64,000 nucleotides of DNA from Brachycybe producta (lineage: Eukaryota; Arthropoda; Diplopoda; Playtdesmida; Andrognathidae): assembly GCA_036925085.1 (NCBI GenBank), contig JAUPFP010000002.1, positions 9,345,321 to 9,409,320 on the forward strand, read 5' to 3'. The notes beneath the pieces were generated by a model, which worked only from the letters and a program-made list of their open reading frames with translations, was not told the origin of the DNA and did not search any database. Each line of letters starts with the position of its first letter. Within the stretch, counting starts at the first letter, position 1. Shown here piece by piece: positions 17,244 through 44,300 of the stretch. Both the position numbers and the translations under genes were made by a program.

Positions 17244-17697
17244 AACCTCTTTTCTACTACAAAAATGAACTATAGTTAAAAAGTTAACCACAGTTAAAAA
17301 GTTAACCACAGTTAAAAACACATGTAATTACATTTAACATGGTTAAACTTCTGTATAATGGAATTAAAAACTCAACTGCCATTGACACAATGTGGTTAAC
17401 CACATTATTGAATGGTTAAATACGTCACTTGAACTCACTTCATGTGTTTAAACAAATTTTTAGCCTACAAACAACATGGCGGATAGGGAGAGTACTCAGT
17501 TTTTGACTTGTTTGAGGAATGAAAATTTGGACACAAAATTCACAACTGTTTAGTTCGTTTAACAATTAAAATCATCTAAACAAGTATGTCTTAAAAAAAT
17601 GGAAACACACTTAAGTACCACTTCTAACTTGTCGGCAGTCAACTATAAATCTTGGTTAAGTAACTGCAGTTAATTTCTGTAGTGAAAACGAGGGGTG
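17244..17697. mobile_element. Foldback element iterating GTTAA/TTAAC, TTA duplications
   Basis: Imperfect inverted ends (CTCTTTTCTACTAC on the left against CTCGTTTTCACTAC on the right). TTA lies outside both ends. The interior repeats GGTTAA and TTAACC many times in both orientations. Only 15 bp separate it from the next foldback element. Confidence 0.7.
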
Positions 17698-17712
17698 TTA
17701 TGAAGTGTGTAA

Positions 17713-18146
17713 AGCCGATGCTACACGTAGCAACAATTCAGCAACTTTAGAACAACATAGCTGTGTTGCTGCTCTATTGTTTCATAAACGTTGAAACATC
17801 TGTCATAAGAGCAACAAACCCGAATTGTTGCTCACAGATTGAAAGCAACAGAATTTTCAAATAGAACTTGGTTCTATTTTCGAGCAACCATTTCAGCCAA
17901 CAGGCAATAAAAACGGCTTGAATAATCACATGACTATTTCAAATTTTCAACTGATGAAGAAGAGAAAGACGAAACAAAATGTCTACAATCTTTGGCTCAC
18001 AACCTCTTTGTTTCGTTGGTTGTTGCTTTCATGTAAGTTTCATGAACGTTGCAACATGTATCATAGGTGTTGCTTGCAACAAATAGGAAACTACTGTTGC
18101 TACAACTAGTATTGTTGCTTGACTGTTGCTACGTGTAGCATCAGCT
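17713..18146. mobile_element. Foldback element iterating GCAAC/GTTGC, TAA duplications
   Basis: Ends AGCCGATGCTACACGTAGCA and AGCTGATGCTACACGTAGCA (inverted), each immediately flanked by TAA. More than fifteen GTTGC/GCAAC words occur in both orientations. It begins about 20 bp beyond the GCPII-A stop codon, so it must be transcribed as that gene's 3' untranslated region unless cleavage is immediate. Confidence 0.9.
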
Positions 18147-18166
18147 TAATGAATGTCTGAATGAAT

Positions 18167-20730
18167 TTAGATTAAATGATGAGGTTTAAGAAAATGTGTT
18201 GCTTGATGTATGGCTATTATGACATCAGAGACATGTTTCTTTACTTCTGTCCAAGTTTCTTCCGGATTACTTGAACTGTCAATATCAAACATAAGGTCCT
18301 GTATTCCCGGAAATGCACTGCTACCATAAAAGTTATGGAAACTCAAAGAGAAAACCACATGTCTATAACACAATAGAATAGAATTAACAAAGAAACGCCA
18401 TGTTAAGTACATATTTTTTTACATTTTAAGCTTCATTTTTAAAAAAAAACATACCTGTATTGCTTTTGAAGTGGTAGACCTTGATGTAATAAAAGAGTTT
18501 GATCCAAGTGTATCATCTGATCATTCAGGCTCCTCAATACATTTGGACTATTTTTTTTTAAATAATAGATGAAAACAATTAGCTTCATCTATTGCTTTTT
18601 TGTTGAAAATATACAAATAAACTGACTTTTTGGTGTTTGTTTTCAATAAACGAGCATTAAATTCGTTAGCTGTCTCGACGAAATCCTCAATTTTAGTTTC
18701 AAGAAGATCTAAAGTGCAAATCAAAAAATGGAAATTTTTAGTTTTAATAAAAGTCAGAATTGTGCAAAATTGTTTTTGACTTTATCTACAGTGAAAATCG
18801 TTTAACACGAAATATCGGATGACATGGAATACGTTTTTATACGAGCTTAGCATAAAAATTCTATTAAGATGGTTTATGAACACCTGATTTCCGAAATCTT
18901 GATTCTTTTGTCTTTTAGAAGAACAAAAGTTAAGGAAAACTAGAAAGTGTTTTAGAAACTAGAAGGATAGCTCATGTTGATTTTTAGGGTCAGAATTCAT
19001 GTTGATATCTTTCAAAATAAACGGTTTTATAGACAACAATTTAAAAAAAAATATATTGTCTGCTTAAAGTTGGGTTATTTTTAAACTGACATTTAAAAAA
19101 AAGACATATCAACATGAAAATACCCATTAAATGATTGAGCTACTCTTCTAGTTTCTAAAACACTTTCAAGTTTCTCTTCATTTTGCATGTGAAAGACACA
19201 ATAATCAGAGTTCGAGAGGCATGTTTACACTTTAAAAACCACTTTAATACGAAAAACATATGGCAGTCTCTTCCATTTCGTGTTAAACGGTTTCCACTGT
19301 GTATGCATTCTACTGTATTTACCAATATTAATGTTGTGATTTAAGATTTTCTCATAAAGTCCAATTGTTTTAAGTTGCTGAAAAGCTTCAGAAATCTTTT
19401 TAGCATAGTGAGTCACATTGAAGGGTAAAATATCAGCATCTTTTAATAAAAATTAATATAGAAATTAGTTTTACTGATATATTTTCATTGATAAATTATA
19501 GTTGTCATAGAATGGATTCAAGGAAACCTGCTAGTTTGTGTAGAAGTAATCCATTCAAGTGTCCACAAGCTTTGTGTTGATTAAAATGAGGATCAATAAA
19601 ATTGTCCACAAGGTAAAATGTGTCGAATCCAGTGTGATAAGCTGGATATGAACCGAATTTCCTCGGTGTATGAAGCTAAAATTTTGCAAAGAAACAAAAC
19701 AACATTGGAATTTCAGCGTAATTATTGAAATTTCAAGGATGTTAAGTAAAACAACTAAGATAGTTTGATTTGCAAATTTGTAACGTTTTGAACACCTTTG
19801 AAGAAAAGTATTTACACCTTTATTTTGTGCCATACTTATCCGTTTACCTTATTTGGTTGAAATGTTAAGTCAATCGAAGCAACTCCAGCCGTAAATGCAA
19901 ATGGGACATGATCAGTTCCACCTCCCAGAAAATTCAGACTAAAAACACATTGTAAGCAAAAGAAAATATAAACTGTTTTGTACTAAAATTGGTACAGACA
20001 CCGATGTCTTGAAGTATAAAAACATTTCAGGACAGCGTGGATGGATTTAAATCAGTTGCTTTTTTGCCTCATTAAAATTAACTTGATTTAAATTTTTAAA
20101 AAAATTGGCAATATTGCACCATAAAAAATTAGGTGATTAAGATCACATTTTGTAATTTGGTTCAGAATTATTCTTTGGTTTTCTTTAAAAAAAAAGTGAA
20201 TTTTTCTTTTATGAAATAAGTTTGTCATGCATGGATTTTCAGTTTTTAAAAGAGAAATTTTATGAAATTTTTTAAATAAATAAAAATAATCTGATTAAAA
20301 TCTAAAAAAAAAAATGCAATTTTCTTGATTTTTTTAAAATAAAAATTATGATTTTTATCTACCCTGTTTTAGAATGATTTTTACTGTATATGTAAGCATT
20401 GCAGAACATTTATTTTCTTACACTACTGAATCATTTAAACGATTTTTTTCCCAGTTTTTACGAAATACATGATCCAAATTAGCTGTTTCTGCTTGAATTT
20501 CTTTCCATGCGTCGAATAATGTTGCCGAATTATTGTTTGGAGCAGGAACCTAATGCAATTTTTCTATTTGAGAGTTTCTATACATTTACAACTGGTGTAA
20601 TTTTCAAATTTCCGGTTACCTGTTTTGATGTTTCAACAACTAAGTGTTGAAGAAGTGGTGAGGCACTTGCTGAGAATACGTCACCTGATGACAAAAGTAC
20701 ACAAAATTCTATATATATTAAGCCAGGTCT

Positions 20731-20772
<42 letters not shown>

Positions 20773-23700
20773 TCTAACGCTGTACAAACAAGGACAAAAA
20801 CCTTGAACCACGTCGGAGTTTATATAAATTTAAATGAATAAATGAACCGCTTTTTTTCTCAAGGTCAACTATATGTTGCACCCTTCCCATCCAAGAACCC
20901 CATGATATTAAAGTGGAGAGGGGAAAAGGTTTGGAAAGAGTATAGAGGGGGGGAGAGAGAGAGAGAGAAACGTGGAGGGGGAAAAGTGGGAGGGGGTGAC
21001 TGAAATTGAAATGAAAGGAGTAAAAAAGGAACAAACGACGCGCGTGCGCACACCAGAGAAAATGAAAAACTCATTTTCTCTTTAAAATATAAAAAAGGGG
21101 AGGGGATAATAGTAGCAAAATTAAACTACAGTTTATCACAGGCAATTGTGCCAAGCATTAGAATTTCTTTTACTCCGCCCTTTTATGAACATCATCAATT
21201 TCTAATTGGTTTGTTACTTGGTCTGATGTCATAAAAGGGCGGAGGAAAAGAAATTCTAATGCTGGGCACAATTGCCTGTGAATTTTGCTCTCGTCATTTA
21301 TGATGGGTTACCCCACTAGTAATATAATAGAAATTAACAGAACATTTCGAAAAATATTAATTTACCTGAAGTGCAGATATCTGTGTTGATGTAGGCGACA
21401 GCACGACTAGATAGTTTCACTAAATTGTCCTGAAAAACAAAACAAAAAACAAAGCAATGGTTCATAGACCAGTTACCCTAACTTGTAATTATCAATACTT
21501 TACCTCCACCCATTCTGTTGATCCAATCAACCCAAATTCTTCACCACCCCAACTACAGAAAACCAAAGTTCTTTTTGGTCTCCAATTTCTCTGTTTTACT
21601 AGTTTTCCCAAAACTCTGGTCACTTCCAATAATTGAGATGTACCACTAGATGCATCAACTGCACCAAATCCCCATGAATCTCTGTGGTTCCCAGCCAAAA
21701 CATAACGATCTACCAAAAAAATATCATCAAAACATTAATTTATGCCAATTTTTTTTAACCTTTTCTTCCTTCATGAGTCATTACATACCTGGTTCAGTGG
21801 ATCCTCTGATGATTCCAATAACATTCGTAACATTGACAGTTTTCAACTGATTGTTGACAACCAGTCTGACTTTTCTAGTAATTTTATGGTTTAATAAAAT
21901 AAATTAGAACCAAATTGAAATTGAAAATTAATGTTAAATGGATAAATTATTAACTTTGCTGTTGAATTTGGTGTGAATCCTGGTCCTAAATTTCTATGAG
22001 TTTCATTTGATTTTTGCCAATTTGCTGGTGATTTAGCTCCACCTAACAGTCTTATAAAATTTAATTAAATTTAATGACATTGTGACGATTCTTATTGTTT
22101 TTATGTGAGGAGGGTGCGGCCATTGGGTGTCCAATGTACCTCCTCCTCTCACTTCATTATTTGAAAATAATGGAGTGTCAAAACGAATTCAATTGATTTG
22201 ATTTGAATTGATTTGACGGGTAAGTCACCGACACAACAATTTAAAGAAAGTGATATTGAGATGATGATTGTTGTGGTCTGCAAAAATACAAAAAAGGTCC
22301 TTAAGCTCTCCTGTTGGTGACCCTATTTCCATATAGGGTCATAAACAGGATAAAAAGAGTTGAACAAAGTGATTTATTTTCGAACTAAAGAAAAGAAAAA
22401 GTTTATTTTTTAAGTGCTGGTCTTTTCTGGCCGTTTCTTTGTTGACTGCTGCTCTTGAATCATCTCATTCAGAATTGTTGCATTGTGTTCATTTCCACCT
22501 CCACTATAGGATTCACAGAAATGAATAACGTCTTATTCTGTAAAATTTAGTAAAGACTCGAAAAGACGATCCGACCCGAACGAGTATGAGGTAGACTGTC
22601 CACGTCGATGTGACGCTTCTGCTCATAGTTTGATGGAGATAAGCTGCTGTCCGATTCCGATGAATAATCGTTTTTGTAAAAAAAAAAAAAAACTACAAGC
22701 TCGAAAGGCAAAGGAAAAGGAACGCTTTTCCTTTGAGTTTCGAGCTTGTCGTTTTTTGGTTCTGTGTCCGAGCCAGGCTAAAAGCTCAGATGGACAAGCT
22801 CCTAGTTCGTCACAACATTCACACTTTTTTTTTAATAAAAAAGGAGGTCATTTACATACTTTAGTAGTTCTTTAGCATCTCCGTATCCAATTGGTTGACA
22901 AGGAATTCTGGGAATGGCTGCATCGTCTTCAGGAATTCTATATGCACCATCTATAATGCCATGAAAATATTTAAAATTGGATCATTTTATATGGTTAAAA
23001 ATAATAATACTAATAATAATAAATAATGCAATGCCTATGGATGGATATTCTGGTGTCAATGGGTCTCCTTTTTCTGATTTCACACTTCCTCTTTGAGCTC
23101 CTGATGACTGGAGCCACCAAGTGTTTGGATAAACATTTTTAGCTTCTTCACCAAGTTGTGCATATTCAAAAGGGTCACTGAATAGGATTATTCCCAAGGC
23201 ACCGTAAGATTCAGCTAGTTTAACCTAAGAATCAGTGGTTATAAAATGCAGAATATTTTTTTTTGTTGTTTTTAAGTAAAAACCTTATTTCCACGGTATA
23301 TGATTCCATATCTAGCTATGACAATCTTTCCAGTTACATTTATTCCGGAATCGATTAACGTTTTGAAATCGTCTGGTCTAGCGTAATTGGCATACACAAG
23401 TTCTCCCTTTTTGCAAACAAAAAATACATATTTTTATATAAATGGTTAAAATGTCTTGAGGCTCGAAACCTACTTTCATACAACTTTCGAGAGTTGTAAG
23501 TTAGGTTTCGAGGAGAGGTATATATAGTTATACTTCAACAGTTCCATTGGCAGCATAGGCATTGAACATATGAACAAAATCGTCATGTTGATCTTCTGGT
23601 CTCAATACGTCTTCCTTATGTTTGCTCGTAAAGATGATGTTGTCATTTGAGTCTAACAGATGAACCTAAGATTTCAATATCTATATTTGAAAAAACTGCA

Positions 23701-24586
23701 AGACATTTTTACATTTTTGAATTGAATTAAAATCACCTTATTTGGATTTTCTACATCTGGATAGGAGAGTAGACATTCGTATGATATTTTCTTGACTGAA
23801 TCAAGTCCTTGCGCTGTCCATTGGTCGTGGATGTAATCTGCTAAGTGATCATCATGAATGGTGCCAGCCATGTGAGGATTTCTTGTTAGATATCTGAAAT
23901 TATGAATTTAGGATTTTGTTGCATTGTGTAATGGACACTACTTCACATAAAGCTACGTCCACACGAACTGCAACAAGTTTCTTAAACTTATGGCTGTATT
24001 CTAAAACACCGTCATTTATGACGGGTTACCCCACTACTACTTAAATAAAATATAATGAACTATCAACAAAATATTGATTTAGTATTTCAATTTAAAATAT
24101 TAATTAATAAAGTCAATTTTAATTTGGTGTTCATGTCCTTAACTGGATTCCGTATAATTCACCTAAACACATTTAATTTGAATTCATTTAACTCATGTGT
24201 GTCCATTGTACAAGGTATTACGATACACATAAATTAACCGAATAGTTATTTCTGATCAGTTTAGTTATCTATTTCAACATATTTAGTTTTTATTTTGAAA
24301 CTTACCTTAGATTTTTTCTTATGAGAGTAGCATTCACTTCTCTGAGAATTGTTTCAGTAACAATATTAGATTTTTGAAGATCACTATAAGATGTTACGTT
24401 TTCATTTTCAACTGTGTTTAAAATGTAAACAGGTTCATTACTTTCATCAATTTCTATGATGTCACTATTTAGTGATAGACCTAATATCGGTATACTTGTA
24501 GCTGTTGTAACAGCGAATACGCAAGACAATAAAAACAGTACAAATGTTAAGACCTGCATATTGTACTGCTGTTGTTTGTTCTTCAT
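18167..24586 (-). CDS. FOLH1-like: Glutamate carboxypeptidase II-like M28 peptidase, copy A (18 exons)
   Basis: Exons: 24306-24586, 23737-23893, 23534-23665, 23284-23406, 23035-23224, 22860-22950, 21955-22050, 21789-21874, 21504-21709, 21366-21429, 20620-20684, 20422-20549, 19848-19938, 19528-19675, 19323-19439, 18627-18708, 18455-18547, 18167-18362. They sum to 781 codons (human GCPII has 750). Family role: a membrane-anchored zinc exopeptidase releasing C-terminal glutamate. Seen: hydrophobic signal anchor at residues ~11-29; PA domain ([13 protein letters not shown]); zinc/catalytic block GNHRD, GFGAVD, GGEEFG; AYINTD; SGN-region equivalent GGGTDH; final zinc His in [11 protein letters not shown]-terminal TFR-like dimerisation domain. 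All intron phases agree. One oddity: intron 5 starts GC, not GT. Introns 6 and 10 carry repeat insertions. Possibly functional if the GC site splices. Confidence 0.93.
18860..19215. mobile_element. Intronic near-palindromic MITE (family 3) in GCPII-A intron 15
   Basis: AAACTAGAAGGATAGCTCA on one side and GAGCTACTCTTCTAGTTTCT on the other, with CATGTTGATATCTTTC/ AAAGACATATCAACATGAA near the centre. The outer arm ends near CAGAGTTCGAGAGGC. Confidence 0.85.
20716..21330 (-). mobile_element. Composite repeat with (TG)n in GCPII-A intron 10
   Basis: Inverted relative of 11412-11800: AGCCAGGTCTCTCTGTG, a (TG)19-like tract at 20734-20771, GTCGGAGTTTATATAAATTT, polypurine GGGGGAGAGAGAG, then GTCATTTATGATGGGTTACC. 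A family-2-like foldback (GGCAATTGTGCCAAGCATTA and inverse) occupies about 21139-21282. GCPII-B lacks this insertion. Confidence 0.7.
22090..22859. other. Unclassified insertion in GCPII-A intron 6
   Basis: The corresponding GCPII-B intron is only about 70 bp, so ~740 bp was gained in A or lost in B. Contents: AGGAGG...CCTCCTCC words near 22110-22150, CCCTATTTCCATATAGGG near 22320, and a strong hairpin at 22692-22750 (ACAAGCTCGAAAGGCAAAGG and inverse). No coding similarity recognised; a decayed transposon is likely. Confidence 0.55.
24040..24225. repeat. Half foldback repeat in GCPII-A intron 1
   Basis: Shares GGATTCCGTATAATTCACC and the ACAAGGTATTA end with the complete element at 15045-15368; preceded by GTCATTTATGACGGGTTACC as in 21290-21320. 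Confidence 0.7.
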
Positions 24587-24775
24587 TTCTTACTAAAAGT
24601 GATATTACTGATTTCAAAATATCTTCTTCTGGGCAAAAGACAAAAAAGTAATTAGTTATAATCAGTTAAGAAATCTTTGAGAGTCCAGTTTTGAGTGTAA
24701 TTTGAAACTTAACATGTAACTAATTGTTGCATGTCACATTCAAAAAGGTCATAGATCAATTCTTCTGATTCATAA

Positions 24776-24981
24776 GGCTAGATTCACACGGAACACAGTG
24801 TGGCGCTACAAAGTGGATGGATCACCATTGAAAACAATGGCTTGCTGTTAGTTCGGCTCAACTTTGATCATCACTGACTCGATTCTGTTGCTCTTATGAA
24901 CACCCCTTATGTAGTCAATGGCCTGCTGAAAACGACAAACTTAATGTGGTTACACAAAAGGTGGTCCATGTGAAGCTGGCC
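24776..24981. mobile_element. TAA-flanked MITE upstream of GCPII-A
   Basis: Inverted ends GGCTAGATTCACACGGA and GGCCAGCTTCACATGGA, with TAA on both outer sides. Interior repeats CTACAAAGTGG/CACAAAAGGTGG words. A diverged copy lies at the matching position upstream of GCPII-B. Confidence 0.85.
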
Positions 24982-25332
24982 TAACAGTTGAGCAATGGTC
25001 TGTTTTGGTATACACTGTATACTTTGAAATTTAGACCATTTTTGTATATTTTTAAGGTATTTTTTTTAAAAAAAATATATTGCGGCCACAAATATCAAAT
25101 TCATCAATTCCATATCATGTTACACATTATTTTAAAAACAAAAATGAATTTCAGAATGACTAGAATTGATTTTACGTTTTTTTCTTCTTAGGCCAGTTGC
25201 AACTTAAACAAATTTCAGTGATGAAAAGCAAAATTACAAATTGAAATTTATGTATTCCATGGACTTTATTGAATATCTCCGATTTGAATCAATAATATTG
25301 GAAGAAAAAAATTCCAAATTAAGTGTAATGAA

Positions 25333-28300
25333 TTATATGGAATGAAGTGGTTTTAGAAATTGTGTCGCTCGATGCATCGCAATGATGACATCAGAGACAT
25401 GTTTCTGCAGTTCTATCCTAGTCTTTTCCGGATTTGTAGAACTGTCGATATCAAACATAAGGTCCTGTATTCCTGGGAACGAACTACCACCATACTGGTT
25501 ATATTCACTCACTGAAAACAGTGCGTGCCTGAAAATAAATTAAACAACAATTGCTTATCAGTATAGCTAGCTCATAAATCATAGTGATCTGAGGTAAGTA
25601 TTAGTTTAATAAGTGCTTTTTTTTTGCCATTTATTGGCAACACTCAACTATGGCATGGAATGCTCCTATTTAGTTGAACAACCTCTAGGTATATAATATC
25701 TAGTTACCTGTTGAGCCCTTGTATTGGTAGACCATCTTGTAATAAAAAGGTTTGATCCAGATGCATCAACTGATCATTCAGACTCCTCACTATAATTGGA
25801 CTTTTTAAGGCATAAAATAAAACCAATTAGCATCATCTATTGTGACAAACACTTCATTTTCAACATTCCTACTGAGATTTCTTACTCATTTAAATTTGTT
25901 TCAGTAAACCTTGCGTTAAATTCGTTTGCTGCTTTACTGAAATCCTTGATTTTAGCTTCAAGAATATCTAGATGTAATCAGTAAAAACAAGAATTAGCTT
26001 AAATCTTATGAATAGAACAGCCAAATTGCACCGAAATTATGTATTCACCTATGTTAATACCAAAATTTAAAATTTTATTATAAAGTCCATATGTTTTTAG
26101 ATCCTGAAAACCTTCAGTTATCCTTTTAGCATAATGGGTGACGTTGAAGGGTAAAATATCAGCATCTAAAATAAACAGATTGATTATAATTGTCCAAGAA
26201 TGGACTTTTAATTTAATTTGGGTTCTCAGACCTGCTAAATTTTGTAAAAGTAATCCATTCAGGTGTCCACACGTCTTATGATAGTTGAAACCAGGATCGA
26301 TGAAATTGTCCACCAGGTGAAATGTATCGAACATGGTGTGATAGGTTGCATACGGAAAGAACTTTTTTGCCGTATGGAGCTAATATTTGCATAAACAGCT
26401 AATTAGTTATCAAGTACACGTAAGTAGAGCCTAAGTACATTGTTGCACTTTACCATATTTGGTAGAAAAGCAAAGTCAATGGTTGAAACTCCTGCAGTAA
26501 ATGCGAATGGAACATGATCAGATCCACCTCCCAGTAAATTCACTCTAAAACATATTCAAAGCAAAAATTGAATTCAACTTTTCCATAAAATTACTAAAGA
26601 TGGGGAAAAGGTTTCAGTAAAATCCTTACACTACGGAATCGTTTATGCGAGTTTTTTCCCATTTCTTTCGAAATTCAGGATCCAATTGAATAGCTTCCAA
26701 TTGGTATCGTTTCCAGGCATCGAATAATGTTTCTGATTTGTTTTTTGGAGCAGGGACCTAGTTTTGATTTGGTATTAGAAAGTATACAAATATATATATA
26801 AGAGTTTTGGTCGCGTATAGCCAGCCCAGAATAAAAATCCCGGTGTATTAACAAAGTATAACTGTTATATGGGTTGTATAAATTTTATTGTTTTATTGTT
26901 TATTTTATTGTTTAAAAGTGAATATCACAGTATCTAAAGGAGCTACACATTTATCAAAATGTATATAGTTCAACGAAAAATGAAATTTTAAGGAAAATTA
27001 TAATTTACACCTCTGTTTTTAATAATCAATAATTATTTTTTATAATTCTTTACAAATTTGTTTCATTTTATTTATAGAACTTCATTTGGAAATGTTCTTA
27101 ACAATCAAATGAAGTTTTAAATGTGCGACATTTATAATTTCTGAGATATTTAATTTTAAACGATTTAATAAGATTGTTTATAAACAGCTTATTTTCTAAC
27201 TCGAATTATTTTGGTCTTTCAGAAGCAAAATTAAGAGAATCTAGAAAGTAGTTTAGAAAATAGACGGGCAACTCACTCATCAAAGGGTATTTTTCTTTTT
27301 GATATCTTTCAAATTAAACTTTTTATGGACAGAAATTTAAAAAAAAAATTATCGTTTGCTTTAAATTGGGTCATTTTCAAACTGACATAAGTTAATTTTG
27401 AAATATAACATGAAAATACACACATAAAGCCTCGTTTTCACGGCGATAGTCCTATCGTGAGAGTAGCTATCATGAAAGTTGTGATAGTTCACTCTCACGA
27501 TAGCAACTGTCTACACGTCTTGAAGTAACGTGATAGTTGTGTCACATGACAAGTGTGACGTCTACTTCACAGATATATCATTTGAGTCAACAACAGTGTT
27601 GCCTCTCCCTCCAGAAGCCAAATATCCCTACAAGGGGCTATTTCCCAACAAGCGGTCACTCAACAACTATTACTATCGCGACAGTACTATCAACTATCTC
27701 TAGTCAAACGAGATAGTTGTGATAGTGCTATCGCGACAGTGCGATAGTAACTATCATGTGGTTTTCACAATGATATTTCTCGCGATAGTTGCTCTCATGA
27801 CAGTAACTATCGTGACAACTATCATCGTGAAAACGGGGCTTAAGTGTTTGAGCTGCCCTTCTAGTTTATAAAACACTTTCAATTTTGTCTTCATTTTGCA
27901 GCTGAAAGACAGAATAAATCAGAATTCGAGAGGCGCGCCGTTCACAACTTTAAAACCACCTCGGCAATTAGCTACACAATGCACTTATTGGTGCATTCGT
28001 TCTGAGACATAATGCAAAGTACAAAATGTGTGTTTACTTGTTTTGATATTTCTACAATGAAATCTTGAAGAAACGGCGATGCATTTGCAACGAGTACATC
28101 ACCTTGTGAAAGGAATAAAAGGAAAATTAGTTGAAAATACAATAGGAAAAAGTGGAATTTGTTTCAGTATACCTGCTGTACAGACGTCAGTATTAATGTA
28201 GGCAACGGCGCGACTTGATAATTTCACTAAATTATCCTGAAAAAATATCAGAAATTGACTTTGAATTAACTGATATTCCAGCGTCATTCAGTAGTCAATT

Positions 28301-30563
28301 GTGAATTATAACTTGTAATAAATTAATAATAGTTACCTCTACCCATTCTGATGATCCAATCAACCAAAATTCTTCTCCGCCCCAACTACAGAAAACCAAA
28401 GTTCTTTTTGGTCTCCAATGTCCCTGTTTTACAAGATTTCCAAGAACTCTGGTCACTTCCAACATTTGAGCTGTTCCACTTGATCCATCCACGGCACCGA
28501 ATCCCCACGCATCTCTGTGGTTACCAGCCAAAACATAACGATCTACAAAGAATACCATCAAAACATTCATTTATACCAATTTGGGTCTCAACTTCAGTCG
28601 TTTTGTACCCGGTTCAGTGGATCCTCTGATGATCCCAATCACATTCGTAACATTGACAGTTTTCAGTTGGTTATTGACAACCAGTTTGACTTTTCTGTGA
28701 ACGTTTTGTTTTATTTAGAATTTCATGGATCCGTGATGAAAACGAAATTTTAAAAAAAACCTTGCTATTGAGTTCGGTCTGAATCCTGGTCCCAAATTTA
28801 AAGTCGTTTTGTTTGATTGTTGCCAATGTGCTGGTGCTTCAACTCCACCGAGTTGTCTTAGAAAGATGAAAAAAGGCATTGATATTATAATTAAAAAAAA
28901 TACAAATTAGGCTTATTTTTTGTACCTTATTAGGTAGTTTGCATCTCCGTAACCAATTGGTTGACAAGGGATTCTAGGAAGAACAGCTTCTTCTGTAGGA
29001 ATTCTATAGGCACCATCTAGAATTAATAAATTAAAATTATTCCTGGTTAATTTACGGCTTGTCTAATTTGTTTTTAACACCTATGGATGGATAATCTGGT
29101 GTCAATGGGTCTCCTTTATTTGTTTTTATGCTTCCTCTTTGAGCTCCGGACGACTGGAGCCACATTGTGTTTGGATAAACATTTTCAGCTTCTTCTCCAT
29201 TTTGGGCATATTCTGATGCATCGTTGAATAGGATTATTCCCAAGGCACCATAAGATTCAGCTAATTTTACCTAATAATCAGGGTTTTATCTTGTAAATTT
29301 CGTTGTTATATCTTCATTTTTTTAAATGAAGACCTTATTTCCACGGTATAGTAATCCGTATTTAGCAATGACGATCTTTCCAGTTACGTTTATTCCAGAA
29401 TTGATTAACGTTTTGAAATCGTCTGGTCTAGCATAATTTGCATACACAAGTTCACCCTTTTTACGTATAAAATACATATTTTTATATGAGAAGTTTAAAG
29501 TTATAAGGATGTCTCGAAGCCTACTTTTACAACTTTCGAGAGTTGTAAGTTAGGTTTCGAGAGGAGGTATAGTTATACTTCAACAGTTCCATTTGCAGCA
29601 TAGGCATTGAACATATGAACAAAATCTTCATGTTGATCTTCCGGTCTCAGTATGTCTTCTATATGTTTACTCGTAAAGATGATGCTGTCATTCGAGTCTA
29701 ACAGATGAACCTAAAATTTTAATTCTATATTTGAAAAACTGCAAGAAATGTTTGCATTTTTTAATTGAATTAAAATCACCTTATTTGGATGGTTTACATC
29801 TGGATAGGAGAGTAGACATTCGTATGATATTTTCTTGACTGAATCAAGTCCTTGCGCTGTCCATTGGTCGTGGATGTAATCTGCTAGGTGATCATCATGA
29901 ATGGTGCCAGTCATGTGAGGATTTTTTGTCAGATATCTGAAATTATGAATATTGTTTCATAATTTAGGTATGCATAAATTAATTATGGTAAGTAGTGGTG
30001 GTACCATTAAAGCAGTAAACTTCTATGCCTATTTTTTTAGATTTATTCCTGATTAGTTTAATTATTTACAGCATATTTAATTGTTACTAGTAAATTCGTC
30101 GTGCAATTTGCACAAAACGAAAATGAAGGAAACGAATTTTGATGAATTTTTGAAGTTTTTTTTTTTTGGAACTTTTCTCTCTGTATATCAGGGTTTCAGG
30201 TCAAAACCTGTATTGCGTACTTTGCATTGTATTGAAGTTTGTTTTTATATAAATCTGGTATGCTAGGTATATTAGATTTGGTACTTACCTTAGACTCTCT
30301 CTTATGAGAGTAGCATTGACTTCTCTGAGAATTGTTTCAGTAACAATATTAGATTTTTGAAGATAAGATGTTACGTTTTCATTTTCAACTGTGTTTAAAA
30401 TGTAAACAGGTTCATTACTTTCATCAATTTCTATGATGTCACTATTTAGTGATAGATCTAATATCGGTATACTTGTAGCTGTTGTAACAAGGAATACGCA
30501 AGACAATAAAAACAGTACAAATGTTAAGACCTGCATATTGTACTGCTGTTGTTTGTTCTTCAT
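25333..30563 (-). CDS. FOLH1-like: Glutamate carboxypeptidase II-like M28 peptidase, copy B (18 exons)
   Basis: Exons: 30289-30563, 29780-29936, 29579-29710, 29334-29456, 29081-29270, 28926-29016, 28761-28856, 28609-28694, 28337-28542, 28173-28236, 28038-28102, 26630-26757, 26454-26544, 26232-26379, 26049-26165, 25886-25967, 25708-25800, 25333-25528. Exons 2-18 match copy A in length base for base; exon 1 is 6 nt shorter. Total 779 codons. Signal anchor, PA domain, zinc ligands ([32 protein letters not shown]) and dimerisation domain are all present. All introns are GT-AG. Odd: Trp follows the catalytic EEF where copy A and the family have Gly. A minus-strand AATAAA (25265-25270) lies 63 nt past the stop. 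Intron 11 is enlarged by nested MITEs. The start is the first ATG, shared with copy A together with ~80 bp upstream. Confidence 0.94.
27180..27970. mobile_element. Family 3 MITE in GCPII-B intron 11, split by another element
   Basis: AAAATAGACGGGCAACTCA at the left and GAGCTGCCCTTCTAGTTTAT at the right, ending near CAGAATTCGAGAGGCGCGCC. The element at 27428-27840 is inserted within its right arm; deletion of that element restores the family consensus. Confidence 0.88.
27428..27840. mobile_element. Foldback element iterating ACTATC/GATAGT, TAA duplications
   Basis: Ends AGCCTCGTTTTCACGGCGAT and AGCCCCGTTTTCACGATGAT (inverted) flanked by TAA on each side. Its host MITE has TAA once in other copies, so the 3-bp target duplication is directly supported. 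The interior is dominated by ACTATC/GATAGT and TCTCACGATAG/CTATCGCGA words in both orientations. Confidence 0.93.
30092..30250. repeat. Short dispersed repeat in GCPII-B intron 1
   Basis: ACTAGTAAATTCGTCGTGCA followed by AAACGAAAATGAAGGAAACG; the same unit recurs at 31545-31700. Unclassified. Confidence 0.6.
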
Positions 30564-33115: not shown

Positions 33116-34127
33116 CTAATAGATGAACCAACATGGCGTCTAGACACTATACAATTCAATGTATACTGTCTAGACACTATACAATCATAGGCTCTTTTAC
33201 AATATTATAAAGGAGGCTATGATACTGTACAATTGAATTCAATGTGATAAAGCGCCACCTTAGTTCACCCATTTGTCACTGCAGTTGCATTTGGATTGAA
33301 AATGGCGTTACACATTTAGTTGGCCAGTATAATCATATAGCTCATTCCGTCATTCATCGAATTCTACAGCGGTGTGACGTCATGCTCATATATATTTTTA
33401 AAGTGACGTCACAATGATGGATAAGTCGATGAATAATGGAATGTGCTTATATTGTCGTGTTGCCTTGTTGGTTTTGTATGGAATTGGCATCAAAATGGCG
33501 GCTATCCTATTCATTTGGCCGCGCACTGATTTCGTCACTTACATGACGTATATCTTTTGTGACGTCAGAAGTCAAATATCGTCGTTGTGGCGTTTGAAGA
33601 TTTCTCTTTCTCTGCTTCATTTTGTTGCAATTTTTTACTTAAATTATTCGCTTTTTGAACAGTTCTGAATGTGTTTTCGTCTATTCTATCCGTATGTTTG
33701 TCGAAATAGTTCCTCATAGGTGAGATTTAATCTACTTTTGAAGTTCTTTTGCAACGCTCTTTTGATGACGTAATCATCAACTGTGACCCAAATTGCTATC
33801 GTGAAGTAACAATTTATTGAATTTATTCTAGTTTTATTTTCATTTAATACGAATTGATAAAGTTATCTTAGCTTTTAGAATTAATGAAATTCAAAATAGG
33901 TCGTAAATATTGGTTTGAAAATGTATAAACCTTTAAAAGTAGGGTTAATGTGGCTCTTTCATTGACGTCTGTGAATTTCGCTTAACATTAACTAAAATGG
34001 AAAAACCACATCCGTCCTACTTTTATGTTTTACTTTCGCTATTTCATTATTTTCATGTTTCTGAAGTTCTATTAATTTTTTCTTTCTAGTTCGCGTTTCT
34101 TAGTTTCATTATATTTTGGCCGTGACA
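33116..34127. other. Upstream region of the BEGAIN/TJAP1-like gene
   Basis: Contains GTGACGTCA words (33370-33570) arranged around GATGGATAAGTCGATGAA, partly echoed at 46300-46370, so probably a TGACGTCA-rich repeat. A CTTTCTAG near 34081-34089 ahead of the start codon could be the acceptor of a 5' untranslated intron. Confidence 0.4.
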
Positions 34128-35655
34128 ATGGCAAACAACCATTTTCAGTGTCAGGTAAAGAAAAATCGTGTCGTTATAACGACGAAACTATTGTAATCTT
34201 AATTATTTTGTCCTTTTTTTAGGAATGTGGTTGTTATTGTGATAGTTGCCACAATAATAACAGGTAAAAGGGTCAATTTCAGACGATTCCAGCGTTCTTG
34301 AAGTCTGTTTTAACGTTCTTAGCTTCTCTTTCTGCCGTTTTTACGAATAGTTTACATCTTCACAAAGAGATCGAAGATCTGAAACGTCAAGTTCTCGAGC
34401 GTGAATATCACATTCTACAAATGGAAACGAATGTCATGGCCGATGCAGATAAATATCCAAACGGAGAATTTGCAGCACTGAACGATCAAATGCAACTCTG
34501 TCAGGACAAATACGAAAGGTTTTCTTGTCGAACACATTTATTAGTCGAACAGCTAAAACCGGTGTTGCTTTTGCACGTTGCAGGCTTTTAGAAAGTCATC
34601 GCAAGTTACAAAGGGTTAATCAAGGTTTAGAAGATAAACTTTTGAAGATTGTAAGGGTTTTCATGTTCTACTTTTAAAATTTTTTCAATATTTCTCATGT
34701 TTTTTTGGTTCGCATTTAGGTTGATAAATACGAAACGGAGAAAACTGCTTTGAATCGTGACCTTGCAAGCCTTACGTCGAGGTTAGTCGAAGCTAGAGTT
34801 TCCCTGGCACAACTTGAAGAAGAAAATGTAACTAATATTAAGTTTGAAACGAGTTTGAACTGTTTTTAAAGTTATTTTCTTGATTTAGGAGCTTTATCGT
34901 AACGATTGTAACATTGCCATACAATTGTTACAATGCAAACCATCGAATTTCGTGGCGCAGCGTCTCGATTCGGTACGTCACGATGCTATCACGTTAGCAA
35001 TTTCCGATTGAGGCTAATTTTTGTTGTTGTTTGCTTTTAGTTTCCACTTGAATTTCAACACAAAGCCAAACAGCATTTAAATACTCGTAAGACAGATACT
35101 TCTAAAGATCAGGGAAGCCATTCGCCTGAGGTTCGAACGATAAGAGTTCCGATTCCTACGTTTCCACCGACGGCTATGGTTTATTCGGTAAATAACGGTG
35201 AGGTAGGTTCGTCTAATAAAGTTTCGTCGTCTGCTCCATCGACACCGACGACGAACGGACATCCCAACGGGTCGAACGATCTCGTATCGGCTGCCATCAT
35301 GGCCAAAGTGCTTGAGGAACGGGCAAAAGAGAGGAATACGGAGAACGGTTGTTGTTCTGCTCGAAGGAAATCGTCTAGTTGTACTTGTAAGTGTAAGACG
35401 AGGTTATCTAACGAACCATACGGTTTCGTTAGCATTACGTCTCAGACTCAATGGTCGATCGCTCCCGATGCAGTCCTTAGAAATCGATACGTCGACGGTG
35501 GACCACCTCAATGTTCTTGTGCGACGATGTCGGCAGCCGCTGTCCATTCGCAACGGTGGGTCTTGGATACTTCTTCCTCTCAATCTCAAGAGGTTATGGG
35601 TGGGAGAAAGTGGCAACGGTCCGGTTCAACTACGAGTACGGAGACTGAGATCTAA
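34128..35655 (+). CDS. BEGAIN/TJAP1 (Pilt)-family coiled-coil protein (7 exons)
   Basis: Exons 34128-34154, 34223-34263, 34351-34518, 34584-34650, 34720-34827, 34889-34972, 35041-35655, all GT-AG with matching phases: 369 residues. In vertebrates the family comprises BEGAIN (synaptic PSD-95 partner) and TJAP1 (tight junction/Golgi), so a junctional scaffold role is inferred. Seen: a Cys/His-rich head encoded by two tiny exons (CQECGCYCDSC), then ~140 residues of coiled coil with family blocks LQRVNQGLEDKLLKI, LTSRLVEARVSL and RNDCNIAIQLLQC, followed by LPLE-like FPLEFQ. The last exon is Ser/Pro-rich with IMAKVLEER, comparable to the IAKVLEKP motif of BEGAIN. There is a Cys-rich CCSARRKSSSCTCKCK patch near residue 275. 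AATAAA at 36363-36368 is a candidate poly(A) signal. Confidence 0.85.
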
Positions 35656-36380
35656 ATTATGTTGTTGTTACGAGTAATTTTTTTTTTAAAGATGTCTATT
35701 TTCTATCGATATAAATGAATTGAGGACATGAAATGGTACTTTAGAATTGTTAATGGTTTTCAAAGGGTTTAAGCATGAAATCGTTTTGGTTTGTATTGTA
35801 GAAAAGAGACAAGAATGCTTTTTTTTTTTGTAATTTCAACATTTAATTGAAATTGAATTAAACTGAAGTGCTTGAGTGCTCCGTGTACACCCTGCTGATG
35901 ACGTAGTGTTCGTTAGTGGGGCGGTACTTGTGTCAAACGAATCCATTTCGAACGATCTTATCTCAAACGACGAAGGTTGGAAGTGGAGGCTAGTATACTC
36001 CACCTCCAACGCTCGTTGTTTGAAATGGAATCGTTCAAAATAGTATCGTTTGAGATGGAACACGCCGTCAGTGGGCCACATAAAGCAGAGCATTAGATAA
36101 GCCAAACACGAAATGAAGTTCGCTCAGACAGAAAAGAAACGAAATCGTTTAACCGATGGGCAAATCGTAGTTGAGTTCGCAGCTTGTACATGCGTATTAG
36201 AGGTCTTTCCCGTTGCAAATGAAAAATGTCATGGTGTGCACCAGACTAAGGAGTATATTACGTCTTATTATTATAAATTCTATAAGAACTTCCATAATAA
36301 AATGTATTTCCAAAGATATCGTGAAAATTATTTATGCACCTTCGTTTACTTCTCAAATTTGAAATAAATTTTGAAATTAT
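35656..36380 (+). other. 3' region of the BEGAIN/TJAP1-like gene with a small foldback
   Basis: About 35915-36080 is a foldback iterating CAAACGA/TCGTTTGA and GGAAGTGGAGG...CCTCCAAC words. If the AATAAA at 36363 is used, this lies in the 3' untranslated region. Confidence 0.5.
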
Positions 36381-38347
36381 AAATTTAAATTATACGTAGC
36401 TTAAAAAAAACGTTCTCGTCATTTTTTTATTTGATACATATTGAAAAATGAAATAATACAACGATCTTCATCTGAAAGAAACCCTCATTCTGTTATTGTT
36501 TTCTAATTTTTTTGTTACTATGTATTTTGAAGGCCGAGAGCTTAAGAGTCTAGTTTTCTGACTGCGCTTGTCGGTATTTTCTACAAGAGATTTTCTTTGT
36601 TTTTTTCATTCCTTAATTCGTTCCTTCTCGGTCTTCGTACTTGTAGAACGATAAACTTTTTATGCTTTTTGAAGTTCAGGAGAGAGAGAAAATGATGTTT
36701 TTAAAAAATGATATAATTTTGTTATTTGAAATGCGCTTAGTCGATGGCAAAGACGAAAGAGTTTGATAAATTCTATTATTTTGCTGTCGAAATTTGTTAA
36801 AAGATTCGTTTTAATTTTGTCGTGGCTGAGACTAACTAGGTTTTATCGTATCACAGATTGAAATTCTATGTCAGAAATTAACTTATACAAAGATATGAAA
36901 TATTTTTATGCTTATTTCTTGCACATTTTGTAAAAATGAATTCTTTTATTTAATGAGATGATTTTTTTTAAAGTTTTTCCTTCTGCACGGCATCATGAAA
37001 TTTTTTTTTTCAAAAAAAATCTTTGTAATTAAGAGATTGATTCCAGATTTTTAATTATAAATTTTTGTTTCTTGTTTTTCTTTTTATTTTTAGTGTTTCG
37101 AAACAAGAAAAATGTGGCGGAAAAATGCGCGTAGAAACCATTTAGAAAAAACAAAAAAAAACATAGTTGCCTTTGGATTACAATTAATGAGGTTTTTAGA
37201 CTTTTCTTTTTTCCTACCTTTTTTTTTGTTCGTTTTTTCTCAGTTTTAAATGACTAGAACTACTTTTTATTTATGTTTTATGTGTAGTTCTGCTGTACAA
37301 ATGTAAATTTAAATTATAAAAGAGAGAAAAAGTACATTATATAATATCTGTTCATTAATATGTTGACAAGCCAAAGTGATAAAAAAGGAACGCAAGATTT
37401 GAACTGAAGAGTATTTCTTATTCAACTTTGTATTAACAAAAATAAGTTTAAGCTATTTTTATTGCACAAAATCTCATCAAACTCTGGTTTCTTTTGTCTT
37501 TCAGGAGCAAAACTATGAAAAACTTGAGTGTTTTAGTAATCAGAAGGGTAGTTTTCATGTTATTTTTTAAAAAAATAAGCTTTTATGTCAGGTTGAAAGA
37601 GTGACAACGTAAGGAAACGATAATTTTTTTAATTTCTGTCTAAAAAGTAGGGTTAATTAATTTAAATATGATTTAAATCACGATTTAAATAAAAAAATTG
37701 GCAACAAGATAAAAGTGAAGTGATTTAAATCACATTTCGAAAAAAGAAATTTCAGAATTTTTCATAATTATTTATTTTTTAAAAAAGTAAATTTTTTCTC
37801 TTTTATGAAATTTCTTATAATAATGTGCTTAGCAGATGAATACATTGAATAAATTAAAAGAGCATTTTTTAAATTTTAAATAAATTATCTAATACTGATT
37901 TAAGTAAAAAAAATCATGATTTTTATTCATTCTGATAAAAAGTTTATTTTGAAAGATGTCGACATGAAAATACTACTAAACTACCGTTTTAACACTTAAT
38001 TTCTCCTTAAGCGTAAAATAAACCAGTTCGAAAACCAGCTATTCTTAAAATATCTTAAGACATATCACATACATACGATTCATTCACTCAATGAGGAATA
38101 TGATCATTACATTCATTTTCAGTAGAATCAATCAGAAGTTAAGTCGAAGATTAATTAATAATTATTTGAAAGTCACAATTAAAATTAATTTAGTTTTTAC
38201 AATAGAAACAATTAGCGCAAATCATGAACAAAATTTGTGTTGGACGTTTGTGACCGTCTTTTGAAATTATAATGGGCTGATGATCACTGATCAGACTCGT
38301 ATTTTTTTGGTCGTTTGTAAATAGTCATTTGTGAATGGAACGTAATT
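36381..38347. other. A/T-rich intergenic DNA with a family 3 MITE
   Basis: No gene. 37480-38060 carries a family 3 element (TTTAGTAATCAGAAGGGTAG; CGTTTTAACACTTAATTTCT) with an internal ATTTAAATCACGATTTAAAT insertion. Confidence 0.5.
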
Positions 38348-41300
38348 TCAGAGGATGTTGTTGTTCATATGGGTGCTATTTGGACAAGGCATATTTACTA
38401 ATACGAGTAACTAACGTTCAGTTGTATTTCACATTTGCATTGAGGCTATGATTATAGTAGGTGTTTACTAGTGAAAGATTATATTAACAATACATTATTA
38501 TGCTGTTTTTAGTCTAAATAGTCCTTCTGAAACAAGAGGCCCTCTGGAGTTACTTGCAGAATAATTATTCAAATTCAAACTAATGAATTGTGGTAGTTGA
38601 CATAATTTGTTCCAATTGTTTCCATAAATGAATTTTTTTAACTTATATTCAGAACAAAAACCTTACCTGGATACGGACAAGTGTCATTGTTGTCTTTGTA
38701 TTCGTTCAGTATACCAGGTGTTTTAACATCAAACACGTTTCCTATGTAAATAATGATATACAATATATATGTACACATCACGATGATGTCGCCGTATGGC
38801 TAGACATGCGGCATTTTATATCTTCTTTTTTTTACTGATATACCTGCTTCACAGTCTGGAATTTCAATTGCACTCCAGTTACCAGTATTCATGCAGGTCA
38901 CATTGATAAGATTTGTAGAAAGGTTTTTAAACAGATGACCTAAGCAACAATACGAAATAACATATCCCTCCGATGCATATTGGTTGTAATTCTGGGCTGT
39001 CGTTAGTGGAGGCACATCGCGACATTCTATTGAAAAATCAAAATGGGACTGAATTTTAGATTTTCGATTTACAGGTATTATCGTGTATTCTAAAAATGGT
39101 ACCCGCGATACAACGAGGTAACTTGTCAGGCGACCAAGTTCCGTTTCTTTGACATTGTGAAGTGAAGATGTTTGATCGGAACTCTCCTTCGAAAAAGCCG
39201 TAAGTACAATTAAATGTTGCTGTAGAGTTTGTTCCAATGTTATCTCTTTCTATTATGATTCTGTTGTCGAAGTTTGGTTGTTCAGACCATATATTTTTGC
39301 AGTCTTAATAAAGAAATCATTAAGTTTTTTCAAAGTTTGGAGACTTTGAATTCCAGACTTAACGCTCGTAATACTGACCAGTTTGATTTTTATAATAACT
39401 GTTGGCCGAAAACTGTATTATGTGCGCATACATGTGGCCAGTAAAAATAATATAAGGAGTTTCGATGTCAGAGTTTTCACAATCTGAAAAAAATACACAT
39501 TTTATTTAAGTTGGTCTAAACGACACTCGAACTTTTATTATTCTGTCTTGATCAGAAACGAAAGAGAAATTTGAATGTGTTTTAGAAACTAGAAGGGTAG
39601 CTAAATCACTTAAGGCATTTTCATTGTAGTTTTTTTTTTTTCAAAATAACCTTTTGATGTGAGCTTGGAAAAGTTTATTTGGAAAGATATCAACATGAAA
39701 ATACCTTTAAGTGATTCCGCTACCCTTTCTAGTTTCTAACACACTTTCAATTTCTCACAGAATAACCAAAGTTCGAAAATCAGCTGTTCATTAAACACAT
39801 TTCAATTTGAACTTTCTTACTTTGAAATGTGTCGTTTGTGTTTGGAAAACAGGCAATCATTTGAATATCTTTGTGTTCATCAAGATTTTTAAACTTGCTT
39901 TTATAGTCTGTTAATTGAGAATATTGGTTTCTAATTAAAAGGAGCTTAAGGCTCTTGGCACACGAACCACTTTTTACTGGTCGAGTTTGACTGCAAAATG
40001 AAGTCGGCATGTGAATCGTGTGCAAAGGTCCAGCGTCTTCCATAGTAATACTTTGCAACCACACCGGTGATCGTTTTTTTTTTTACTTTACTTAAGAAGC
40101 CGTTCGTGTGCAAAGGTCGGCGTCTTTTTATAGCAGCACTAGGTCAATCACAGCTCAGCCACTTGCGACAACATTTTGTAATCGAACTCGACCACTCAAA
40201 AGTCTTAGCTCTAAAATTCTAATTGAATTTTCAATTATTTTATTTATTTTAATGGTTAAATGCAATAATGAACCTTTTTCCGCTTGAACTTCGATGTCAC
40301 AAGTCTTGTTGTTATTTACATTGCTGTAGTCTTCATTGTTTCCAAGGTAAAATTTACAATAATTATTCATTATCCATCTAAAAGATGGACGACCGGTTAT
40401 GGTAATCTGAAAATGAAAACATCCAAAAGTTTCCTAATTGTTTATTTCAACTTTCTCAATACCTGTGTTGTTATGTTCAATTTAGCAAATTAACAGTTTC
40501 AAAGACACAACAAAACAATGGTGTCATGTATAATTACATTTTGAATGAGAATTCGGTGATTTTCTTCGTTACCGTTACCAATACTAATTTTCTTGAATTT
40601 TCCAATATTTCTGCTTTGTATTTCAAAGTTAATTTCACTGCATTGTAAAATGAAATTGAAAAGAGACTGTTGTTAAATTAATGCGGACATTTCATTTAAA
40701 ACTACTGTATGTCCAGTATTTGAAAATAAAGACAAAACAGTGAGCATATTCGGAAACGAAAGAGGAAAACTATTATCTGTAAAGAAAATAGAAAAGTGTG
40801 TCCGGAAACATGTAGATGGAGCAAGAAAGCAGAAAAGTAGCATCAGGAAGCAAGATGTGGGGCGGAACATCTGTAAAGAAAATTCGTGCGGGGAATTATG
40901 CAAGCGACACCTACCCTTAATCTCAAGAAAGCAAGTGTCTAATGTACATAATTTCTAGAGAACATTAAATTGAGTGTTCCTGTATGCACCATGGCCAATG
41001 AATCTTTATAAGGCTTCATATATGAGCAGAAAATTGCGAAATCAAGAACATCCGGAATTTATTTTCTTTTAAAAAAAATTGTATTGGAAGAGGAGTAATC
41101 ACACTTCTAGATTCTTTCGAGATTAAAGGAATAAATAGTCTTTTGTTTCCGATTATGCGCAGTAACTTAACTAAACTTAACTAAATCCCGATTCTCGGTT
41201 AATAAACATGCATTAAAATACAAGTTATGACGTCAACAAAAGTGACTATTTGCGTTAACAGCAAACGTTAAATTAGAATTTGCTATTGTAGTGAAAGCAC

Positions 41301-44300
41301 ACATTTTTTTTTTTTTGCTTCAAGCTAAGCTTAGATTTAAGCTTAGCTTAGCTCTGAAGCATATAGGTTTTGTCTTGAGCAAAGGTTTTCAAATATGGCT
41401 GTTAAAAATGGTTGACTTACTTTCCATTTGTGGTATTAAAAGAAACCCATTTGACTCCAGTGTCAATATTTTTCTCGCCAATTATATTAACACTGAACTG
41501 TGCATCAAAATTGACATTCCTGTCTGTTTTTTCATATAGGATGTAAACATGGTAAACTGTCTGACCTTTTATGACCACAAATAAAAAATATTATTACATC
41601 TAAAGGTAGGACTTTTATGTTTTATTTTCTTTGTGTTGAATTATTTTGTTTACCTGTTGTGAATATCTGAGCCTTTGCATTGCAATCTTCCTTGTTGCAT
41701 TTTGGTTGAATGCTTGTTAGAATATGGTCCGTACAGTAACATGCGTTTGTCTTGAATCGAAAAAGAGAGTCTTGAGCTGAAGGAGGGAGGGAGGGTCTCC
41801 AAACTTTATAAAATATGGATAATTTTATATTTTTTTTATATATTATAATTTTTTATTTTTTTATATTTTTTATATTTTTTTTTATATTTTATATTTTTAC
41901 AAACTGTAAAACACCTTCCAAATCGGGTATGTACTGTAAGTATATAGTCAATAAGGCTAAACGTTTGCACAAACTACATAATGACAGTTCCAAACCCTTT
42001 TCAGTACACTATAATATCATCTAAGTGCATTATGTTCATTTAAAAACACTTTCAGCCAAAATAAACCACACAATTTTCATAATCTTTAGAAACTTGCAAA
42101 AAGTTGCTTAATTTCACTTATTTTTAAAACAAAACCACTTTTTTGGGGATAGAAAAACTTCTACTAAAGGGTTTCCTGAACCAAATCAGTTTTGCATCTA
42201 TCTCCTGACATTTAATTAGCTGAGTTGTGCTTTTGCTGTATATTTTATATTTGTATAAAATTAACAATTTCTATTTATTTGCATATATTACATAATTTAT
42301 CGAATCATTTAGCACAGTTTCGAATTATTATTTGCATAAAAGTTTTGGTTTTATGATGATTTTAAGAGGTTTTGTTATTTTTCTAAGGGGTGTTTTTTGG
42401 AGTTAGGCCTTTAGACGTTATATACTGAATATACAGCGGAGCTTTTTTTTAAAAAAAAGTTAAAAACTCAATACGTCCATATTTTGGCCATACCTATTTT
42501 ATTGCAGTTTTCCTAAGTGGAAATAAACTCAACGCAAAAGCCACTCCAAATTCAGGTTTTCTATTTCTTTATATGTAAAAGGATTTTTTTTTTTTGCGTT
42601 TGCTGAACAAGTTCAGTTACTGGACTTCTTCAGTTTTAAAAAAAAAAAGTTTCTCAATTATACTTTTATGTCGATATTATTGGCGCATTCACACTAGGCT
42701 GGTTTATCAGCTGCTGGTTGCTGCTGGCTAGTTGTAGCGCTCTAGCAGCATAGTGTGAACTGCTACCAGCAGCTGCTTTCTCCAGCACGCTAGTGATTTT
42801 AACAGTGGCTGGTGAAGTTGAACATGTCCAACTTTAGCAGCTACCAGCTGGTCATGTGACTCCCTTCCTGCTGCTACCAGTGTTTAACTCCACTGCTTGG
42901 GTTGGTTGTTGTTAGAGTTTATGTTTTTGCAAGATGGTGATTGGATGACTTGCGCTGCTAATACCAGCAGTGACTGGAGAAGTGTGAACTCAAAGCAGCC
43001 GCTGCTTGCTGTTGCTGCTAATAGCCAGCAGCAACCAGCGGCTTGTAAACCAGCCTTAAGCGGCAGTCACACTAGGCTGGTTTACAAGCTGCTGGTTGCT
43101 GCTAGCTATTAGCAGCAACAGCAAGCAGCAGCTGCTTTGGGTTCACACTTGTCCAGTCACTGCTGGTATTAGCAGTGCAAGTCATCCAATTACCGTCTTG
43201 CAAAAACACAAACTCTAACAACAACCAACCCAAGCAGTGGAGTTTCAACTACCACTAGTGCCACTACTAGCAACAACAAGTTCACACTAGATGGCAGCAG
43301 CAGGAAGGGAGTCACATGACCAGCTGGTAGCTGCTAAAGTTGGACATGTCCAACTTCACCAGCCACTGTTAAAATCACTAGCATGCTGGGAAAAGCAGCT
43401 GCTGGTAGCAGTTCAGACTATGCTGCTAGAGCGCTACAACCAGCCAGCAGCAACAGCAAGCAGCAGCTGCTTTGGGTTCACACTTGTCCAGTCACTGCTG
43501 GTATTAGCAGCAACAGCAAGCAGCAGCTGCTTTGGGTTCACACTTGTCCAGTCACTGCTGGTATTAGCAGCAGTGCAAGTCATCCAATGACTGTCTTGCA
43601 AAAACACAAACTCTTAACAACAACCAACCCAAGCATTGGAGTTTCAACTACCACTAGTGACACTACTAGCAAGAAAAAGTTCACACTAGATGGCAGCAGC
43701 AGGAAGAAGTCACATGACCAGCTGGTAGCTGCTAAAGTTGGACATGTCCAACTTCACCAGCCGCTGTTAAAATCACTAGCCTGCTGGAGAAAGCAGCTGC
43801 TAGTAGCAGTTCAGACTATGCTGCTAGAGCGCTACAACCAGCCAGCAGCAACCAGCGGCTGGGAAACCAGCCTAGTGTGACTGCGGCATTAGTGTGAATG
43901 CGCCTTTAATAATTGGTGATTTTGGTTGCGGGCAGGACAAATCGAAGTCGGGTTTAATGTATTAGAAAAATAAAAATCTCTTGATGTAAGGTTACTTATT
44001 AAGTTATAATAAGAATATATAATAGAAATCCTTATACCGTTGTGACAATGTAATTGAATTTAGAAAGTCCACAGACGTCTGAGCAGTTGTTGATTGATAA
44101 CTTGGAAATGTTTGAAATGTATAAGTAAGGAATTCCTACTTTTGGAATTTCAACATATCCTAAGCTTTCATTTGCTGAAATTAGTAAAACAAAAATAGGT
44201 TTTAAGAGAATTTCTTTTAAATCCGAAATTAGTGAAAAGTACTTGTATGAGCATTAGTTGTATGGTCGTTAGACTGTATTATATTGAATTCCCAGTCATT

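Follow-up and report, generated by a model that had tools for sequence, protein, structure and literature searches.

The analysed window is a stretch of 64,000 nucleotides from Brachycybe producta (contig JAUPFP010000002.1, positions 9,345,321 to 9,409,320 of the forward strand), and window positions are counted from its first letter. Fucosyltransferase and tyrosine-kinase exons are present in the window, together with the following short elements:

11026..11211, no strand assigned: E6, an additional small element, TAA-flanked, with the tips KRCCTTGTTTCCATTG, absent from the original prediction
17244..17697, no strand assigned: E1, Harbinger-type MITE with the word GTTAA/TTAAC; TTA at 17241-17243 and 17698-17700
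17713..18146, no strand assigned: E2, Harbinger-type MITE with the word GCAAC/GTTGC; TAA at 17710-17712 and 18147-18149
24776..24981, no strand assigned: E5, old Harbinger-like MITE with no enriched word; TAA and GGCYAGNTTCACAYGG tips
27428..27840, no strand assigned: E3, Harbinger-type MITE with the word ACTATC/GATAGT; TAA at 27425-27427 and 27841-27843
42680..43905, no strand assigned: E4, nest of MITE units with the word CAGC/GCTG; outer tips GGCGCATTCACACTA; TTA at 42677-42679 and 43906-43908
43059..43888, no strand assigned: inner E4 stretch, running between a pair of tips of the AGCGGCAGTCACACTA type and flanked by TTA on either side

The very start of the window (1-457) is an inverted repeat of 221 bp, perfect and with 15 nt between its arms, which is either a real hairpin or an assembly artefact. 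Dispersed tandem arrays with a unit of ~193-195 bp, apparently of one family, are found at 1938-2523, 4869-6227, 13907-14496 and 58949-59538. A TTA-flanked stretch at 11254-11940 has the tips TACCTTGTACACACAT and TACCTAGAACACACCT and a (CA)32 run inside, and a possible 299-bp relative of it is located at L065, 1062-1360.

According to the original prediction, E1 to E5 share one design, while each is dominated by its own short word. We compared the word counts with those in 500 dinucleotide shuffles of each element. E1 holds 15 copies of GTTAA/TTAAC (shuffle mean 3.4, maximum 11), E2 holds 15 copies of GCAAC/GTTGC (mean 1.7, maximum 6), E3 holds 13 copies of ACTATC/GATAGT (mean 0.37, maximum 3) and the E4 nest holds 79 copies of CAGC/GCTG (mean 41, maximum 56), such that the observed count was reached by 0 of 500 shuffles in all four. 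The words occur on both strands and in both orientations, and the family consensuses concur, with the top 5-mer and 6-mer of each of the E1-E4 families lying above all 500 shuffles. The enrichment proposed for E5 was not recovered, its word, CAAAGTGG, being found there once.

Relatives of these elements were searched for in the genome (295 Mb, 442 contigs). E1 to E4 are ~409-435 bp in size, non-coding and present in high copy number, with at least 40 scored copies per family. The main scored copies of E2 are 95-97% identical, those of E3 are 88-92% identical and the ~432-435-bp unit of E4 reaches an identity of up to 99%; exact tips of these three families were found 247, 451 and 277 times genome-wide, respectively, and the reversed-pattern control of the tip searches gave 0 in all three. 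For E1, a first look yielded 1033 candidates genome-wide, 40 of which were scored, and the main non-self matches are 71-78% identical; E1 is an old, mostly decayed family. E5 has 34 relatives in the genome, diverged and partial. E4, which had been taken for one element, is in the window a nest of inverted ~432-435-bp units, and its inner stretch includes a ~432-bp unit with 98-99% identity to many copies.

Inverted tips with TAA or TTA directly outside, another predicted feature, were found by scan for E2, E3 and E5 and by eye for E1 and the E4 nest. In the window's E1, the TTA/TTA pair needs a 2-bp insertion in the right tip, and the automatic count scored this copy as 'other'; the E1 tip itself had been misread, as the family tip is TACCTCGTTTYCAC. 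A scan for inverted tips flanked by TWA (TAA or TTA) returned 87 matches, as compared with 7, 19, 0 and 9 with other trinucleotides, a comparison that is biased since most of the scanned loci had been fetched as E1-E4 copies. The predicted common tip plan can be seen in the E1-E4 consensuses, where AGCC, AGGC or TACC is followed by a few bases and then by a CAC core. The Harbinger TIR is of the GG(G/C)CC type (PMC4423477, Table 1); E2-E4 carry AGCC, AGCG or AGGC tips, and the TACCTCG start of E1 is a looser fit to the Harbinger type.

Among the genome copies, identical TWA trinucleotides lie on either side in 20 of 27 scored rows for E2, 15 of 31 for E3, 14 of 19 for E4 and 7 of 21 for E1, those of E1 being visible when the tip TACCTCGTTTYCACTACA is used. 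When referring to these numbers, it should be considered that the rows exclude ambiguous pairs, duplicated flanks and copies for which the two tips could not both be located under the permitted mismatches, with 28 loci giving 21 rows for E1, 30 giving 27 for E2 and 20 giving 19 for E4, and that nested copies and L128 added rows for E3. The TWA duplications of all four families fit PIF/Harbinger.

The genome contains at least 79 DDE_Tnp_4 matches in at least 72 loci and at least 132 MADF matches. A MADF match lies within 4 kb at 29 of the 72 transposase loci, on the opposite strand in 29 of 29, against a chance expectation of ~0.26 loci. Ten of the 72 transposase loci were read. One of these, L111, is a complete element of 2916 bp with TTA on either side and a TIR, AGGCTCAGCCACACT, that matches at 15 of 15 positions. 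It encodes a DDE_Tnp_4 protein (1e-34). A MADF (Myb/SANT) protein (7e-7) is encoded on the other strand, and a separate open frame gives a BESS match that falls short of the cut-off. Its word, CATTCA, is present in 9 copies in the two 150-bp ends (shuffle maximum 5, 0 of 500), including an array of four copies at exact 10-bp steps, and four windows in the interior gave no enriched 6-mer. The stretch at 700-1023 of L111 is an inverted copy of the element's left end, placed head to head with it and with TTA in common.

The first 105 bp of L111 have 14 near-complete matching places in the genome. We fetched five short derivatives, of 263, 263, 263, 150 and 482 bp, and all of them carry L111 tips with TWA on both sides. 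CATTCA was the top 6-mer in all four derivatives that were tested (1 of 500 shuffles for L123, 0 of 500 for the others), L126 not being among these. The three 263-bp derivatives, L123, L124 and L125, lie on different contigs with common flanks. These common flanks point to a duplicated region with one insertion, and the five derivatives thus represent three independent insertions.

A second complete element, L114 (3132 bp, TTA, one mismatch in 15 TIR positions, 6 places in the genome), has a weaker word, TACTG/CAGTA, with 1 of 500 shuffles for the 5-mer and 59 of 500 for the 6-mer. By these end-word counts, one autonomous element shows the word pattern clearly and a second shows it weakly. L121 has a TIR and no clear word, L119 and L120 hold longer bidirectional motifs with ends that are not resolved, and ends were looked for in L109, L110, L112, L113 and L122 and none were found. 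L113 (C52:363700-367700), with a transposase ORF and an opposite-strand MADF match, is possibly a pair that has been domesticated, or else an element whose ends have decayed. The assignment of E1-E4 to PIF/Harbinger MITEs, as originally predicted, is supported by the TWA duplications in all four families, the Harbinger-like tips, the at least 72 DDE_Tnp_4 loci and an autonomous relative with the same anatomy.

None of the ten transposase loci that were read, out of 72, has the tip or the word of E1-E4, and no parent of these families was found there. The search for parents by tips considered the first 100 tip places listed per pattern for E2, E3 and E4. One E3 tip lies 4.0 kb away from a transposase and belongs to an ordinary MITE with 90% identity over 426 bp. 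An E4 tip at a distance of 5.3 kb from a transposase consists of ~35 bp of tip with no words behind it and was treated as a broken copy, the stretch between not being read. When the E1-E4 interiors were compared with the 10 transposase loci (40 comparisons, 60 shuffles each), two E3 interior matches reached 0 of 60 and 1 of 60 shuffles; these are short and about as expected from 40 tests. The E1 centre resembles the beginning of MADF in L114, but not significantly so (4 of 60). The further claim that each family switched to a new word can be kept only in part: the families do differ in word, but no switch was traced.

Among known systems, zebrafish Harbinger3_DR has a Myb-like protein that recognises a motif of 9 bp located subterminally (PMC9710019), and ORF1 was shown to bind TIRs, the transposase having no obvious binding domain (PMC2836001). 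It is plausible that the transposition machinery binds the word; indirect support comes from the enrichment of the L111 word at the ends and not in the four interior windows, and from its retention in the short derivatives. Counted from the tip, the first word begins at nt 18 in E2, E3 and E4 (E3 being scored with CTATC and E4 with GCTGG rather than with the originally predicted words), at nt 19 in L111, at nt 23 in E1 and at nt 29 in L114. The agreement at nt 18-19 in E2, E3, E4 and L111 suggests that the ends may be built of two parts, an outer tip for the transposase and an inner array for its partner, a split in keeping with both papers. Words are spaced 10-10-10 in L111 and 11-11 in E2, a regularity that was seen without a control.

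We consider it fairly probable that E1-E4 are non-autonomous PIF/Harbinger MITEs whose tips are read by the transposase and whose words are the predicted sites of a fast-evolving MADF partner. The transposase would recognise and cut the outer ~17 nt of the tip; the words arrayed from ~nt 18-19 would be bound by the MADF partner, which would recruit the transposase to the ends. Internal deletion that keeps tips and arrays would yield MITEs dominated by words, and, with MADF evolving more quickly than the DDE domain, each lineage would end up with a different word beneath a similar tip. L111 and L114 are 53% identical in the DDE domain and 29% in MADF, and MADF identity is below DDE identity in 5 of 6 element pairs. 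We infer that each MADF would bind its own word, and E1-E4 would be tied to this scheme by their duplications, their tips and their likeness to L111. If the word is a MADF site, the specificities of a fast-evolving, repeatedly domesticated family of DNA-binding proteins could be read from MITEs, and the separate roles of the tip, for the transposase, and the word, for the partner, could be tested by word swaps between families.

One alternative is that E1-E4 are Harbinger MITEs whose words are filler of low complexity, spread by slippage or by duplication on a local scale and carried along by good tips. An 18-bp tandem piece in E1 and a 60-bp duplication in E4 agree with such spreading, as do the word-rich tandem repeats of L109 and L112, which were not placed at resolved ends. 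However, filler does not account well for words in both orientations, for a word in L111 that is enriched at both ends but not in the four internal windows, or for a first word at nt 18-19 in four lineages of differing words, and we regard this reading as unlikely. We find it quite unlikely that the words are instead sites of host regulators of the MADF/Myb type, acting in expression, silencing or host recruitment, rather than of the element's own partner. The genomic MADF matches are indeed far above the number near transposases, and the MADF protein ADF-1 of Drosophila is known to recognise trinucleotide motifs that are repeated (PMC11893794) and that are loosely like the E4 and E2 words. 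Nonetheless, the family that carries the L111 word has a full copy with its own MADF gene, and its gene-less short derivatives keep the word, where a regulatory role is hard to see.

As to the 'foldback' class of the original prediction, this is a misnomer for the single elements because their arms agree, with few mismatches, over the outermost part only (~35 bp in E1, 23 in E2, 24 in E3 and ~48 in E4). The aligned halves show identities of 111/201 (E1), 100/209 (E2), 115/189 (E3) and 123/204 (E4), that is 48-61%, with no control alignments. True foldback elements of the FB/Galileo type, with long inverted arms, are thus highly improbable given these short arms and the 3-bp TWA duplications, even though words in two orientations look palindromic and the window's E4 nest has real inverted units.

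Taken as Harbinger MITEs with putative partner sites, E1-E4 resemble rice mPing (Tourist type) and Harbinger3_DR in the 3-bp TAA/TTA duplication, the short tips and the lack of coding capacity, and the two-protein parents of both (transposase and Myb-like) have their counterpart here in the sister family L111 (PMC2836001, PMC9710019). Unlike in Harbinger3_DR, each element of ~400 bp holds ~13-18 copies of the word here, with both orientations represented, and families within one genome have different words. The claim that no such architecture had been described was overstated, as MtPH-A6-4 of Medicago truncatula is a comparable PIF/Harbinger element, with AAACNNCTTATT triplicated in 60-bp repeats that lie in opposite orientation in both subterminal regions and sometimes fill nearly the whole element (PMC2213677). 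It differs in being one subfamily with a long tandem unit, and the available part of that paper describes no set of lineages with different words. Acropora coral CMITEs likewise form several related MITE families with tandem arrays in one genome, but with a conserved interior, differing tips and TTAA duplications of the piggyBac type (PMC2872659). As Harbinger elements with subterminal motifs have been described before, E1-E4 are a variant rather than a new class. In CACTA transposons, subterminal motifs are family-specific. These transposons share with E1-E4 the arrays of short motifs near both ends, but have CACTA/G tips and variable 3-bp duplications, as opposed to AGCC/TACC tips and TWA (PMC4423477). 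In the literature on Harbinger subterminal repeats, MADF, binding sites and MITEs, of which few subscription papers were covered and the rest was available in part, no arrays of different words in several lineages of one genome were found.

The target duplications have a further property. In 15 of 64 TWA-flanked E2-E4 rows (5 for E2, 8 for E3 and 2 for E4), the two flanks differ at the middle base only, TAA on one side and TTA on the other; without nested copies (L014, L043 and two in L057), the count is 11 of 60. L015, L025, L026, L040, L048, L089 and L098 are examples. As other single-base differences between flanks total only 9, mutation is expected to yield ~1 middle-base swap. If the donor strand were carried over and mismatches repaired at random, discordance of ~25% would be expected, and for mPing it has been proposed that the duplication is cut in a staggered way, leaving 5' overhangs (PMC4561436). 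The discordance possibly reflects carry-over of a donor strand to the new site. Against this, the discordant E2 rows are all TAA/TTA (5 to 0), a bias that the simple model does not foresee, discordance is found in 0 of 7 TWA-flanked E1 rows, and 45 of 46 insertions of TCA-flanked mPing are in TTA/TAA (PMC4561436), which we count against carry-over. Hairpin conversion is disfavoured as the cause, as the AGCC/AGCT difference at the fourth base of the tip is kept in all 5 discordant E2 copies. Through this middle-base discordance, the way in which Harbinger elements join their target could be tested from sequence alone. A combined reading, in which Harbinger lineages would keep a common transposase tip and swap arrays along with fast-evolving MADF partners, making MITEs a fossil record of MADF specificities, and in which the A/T discordance would reflect an old target strand carried into the new site instead of gap-fill synthesis, is put forward tentatively, as a possibility on the doubtful side.

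With regard to insertion sites, 4 of 30 E2 copies (L016, L022, L028 and L030) lie in the same site type, (T)CTAGTTTC abutting TAA. The motif CTTCTAGTTTCTAA is also present in L112 and L117, and a version of it with one change is found at window position ~27857.
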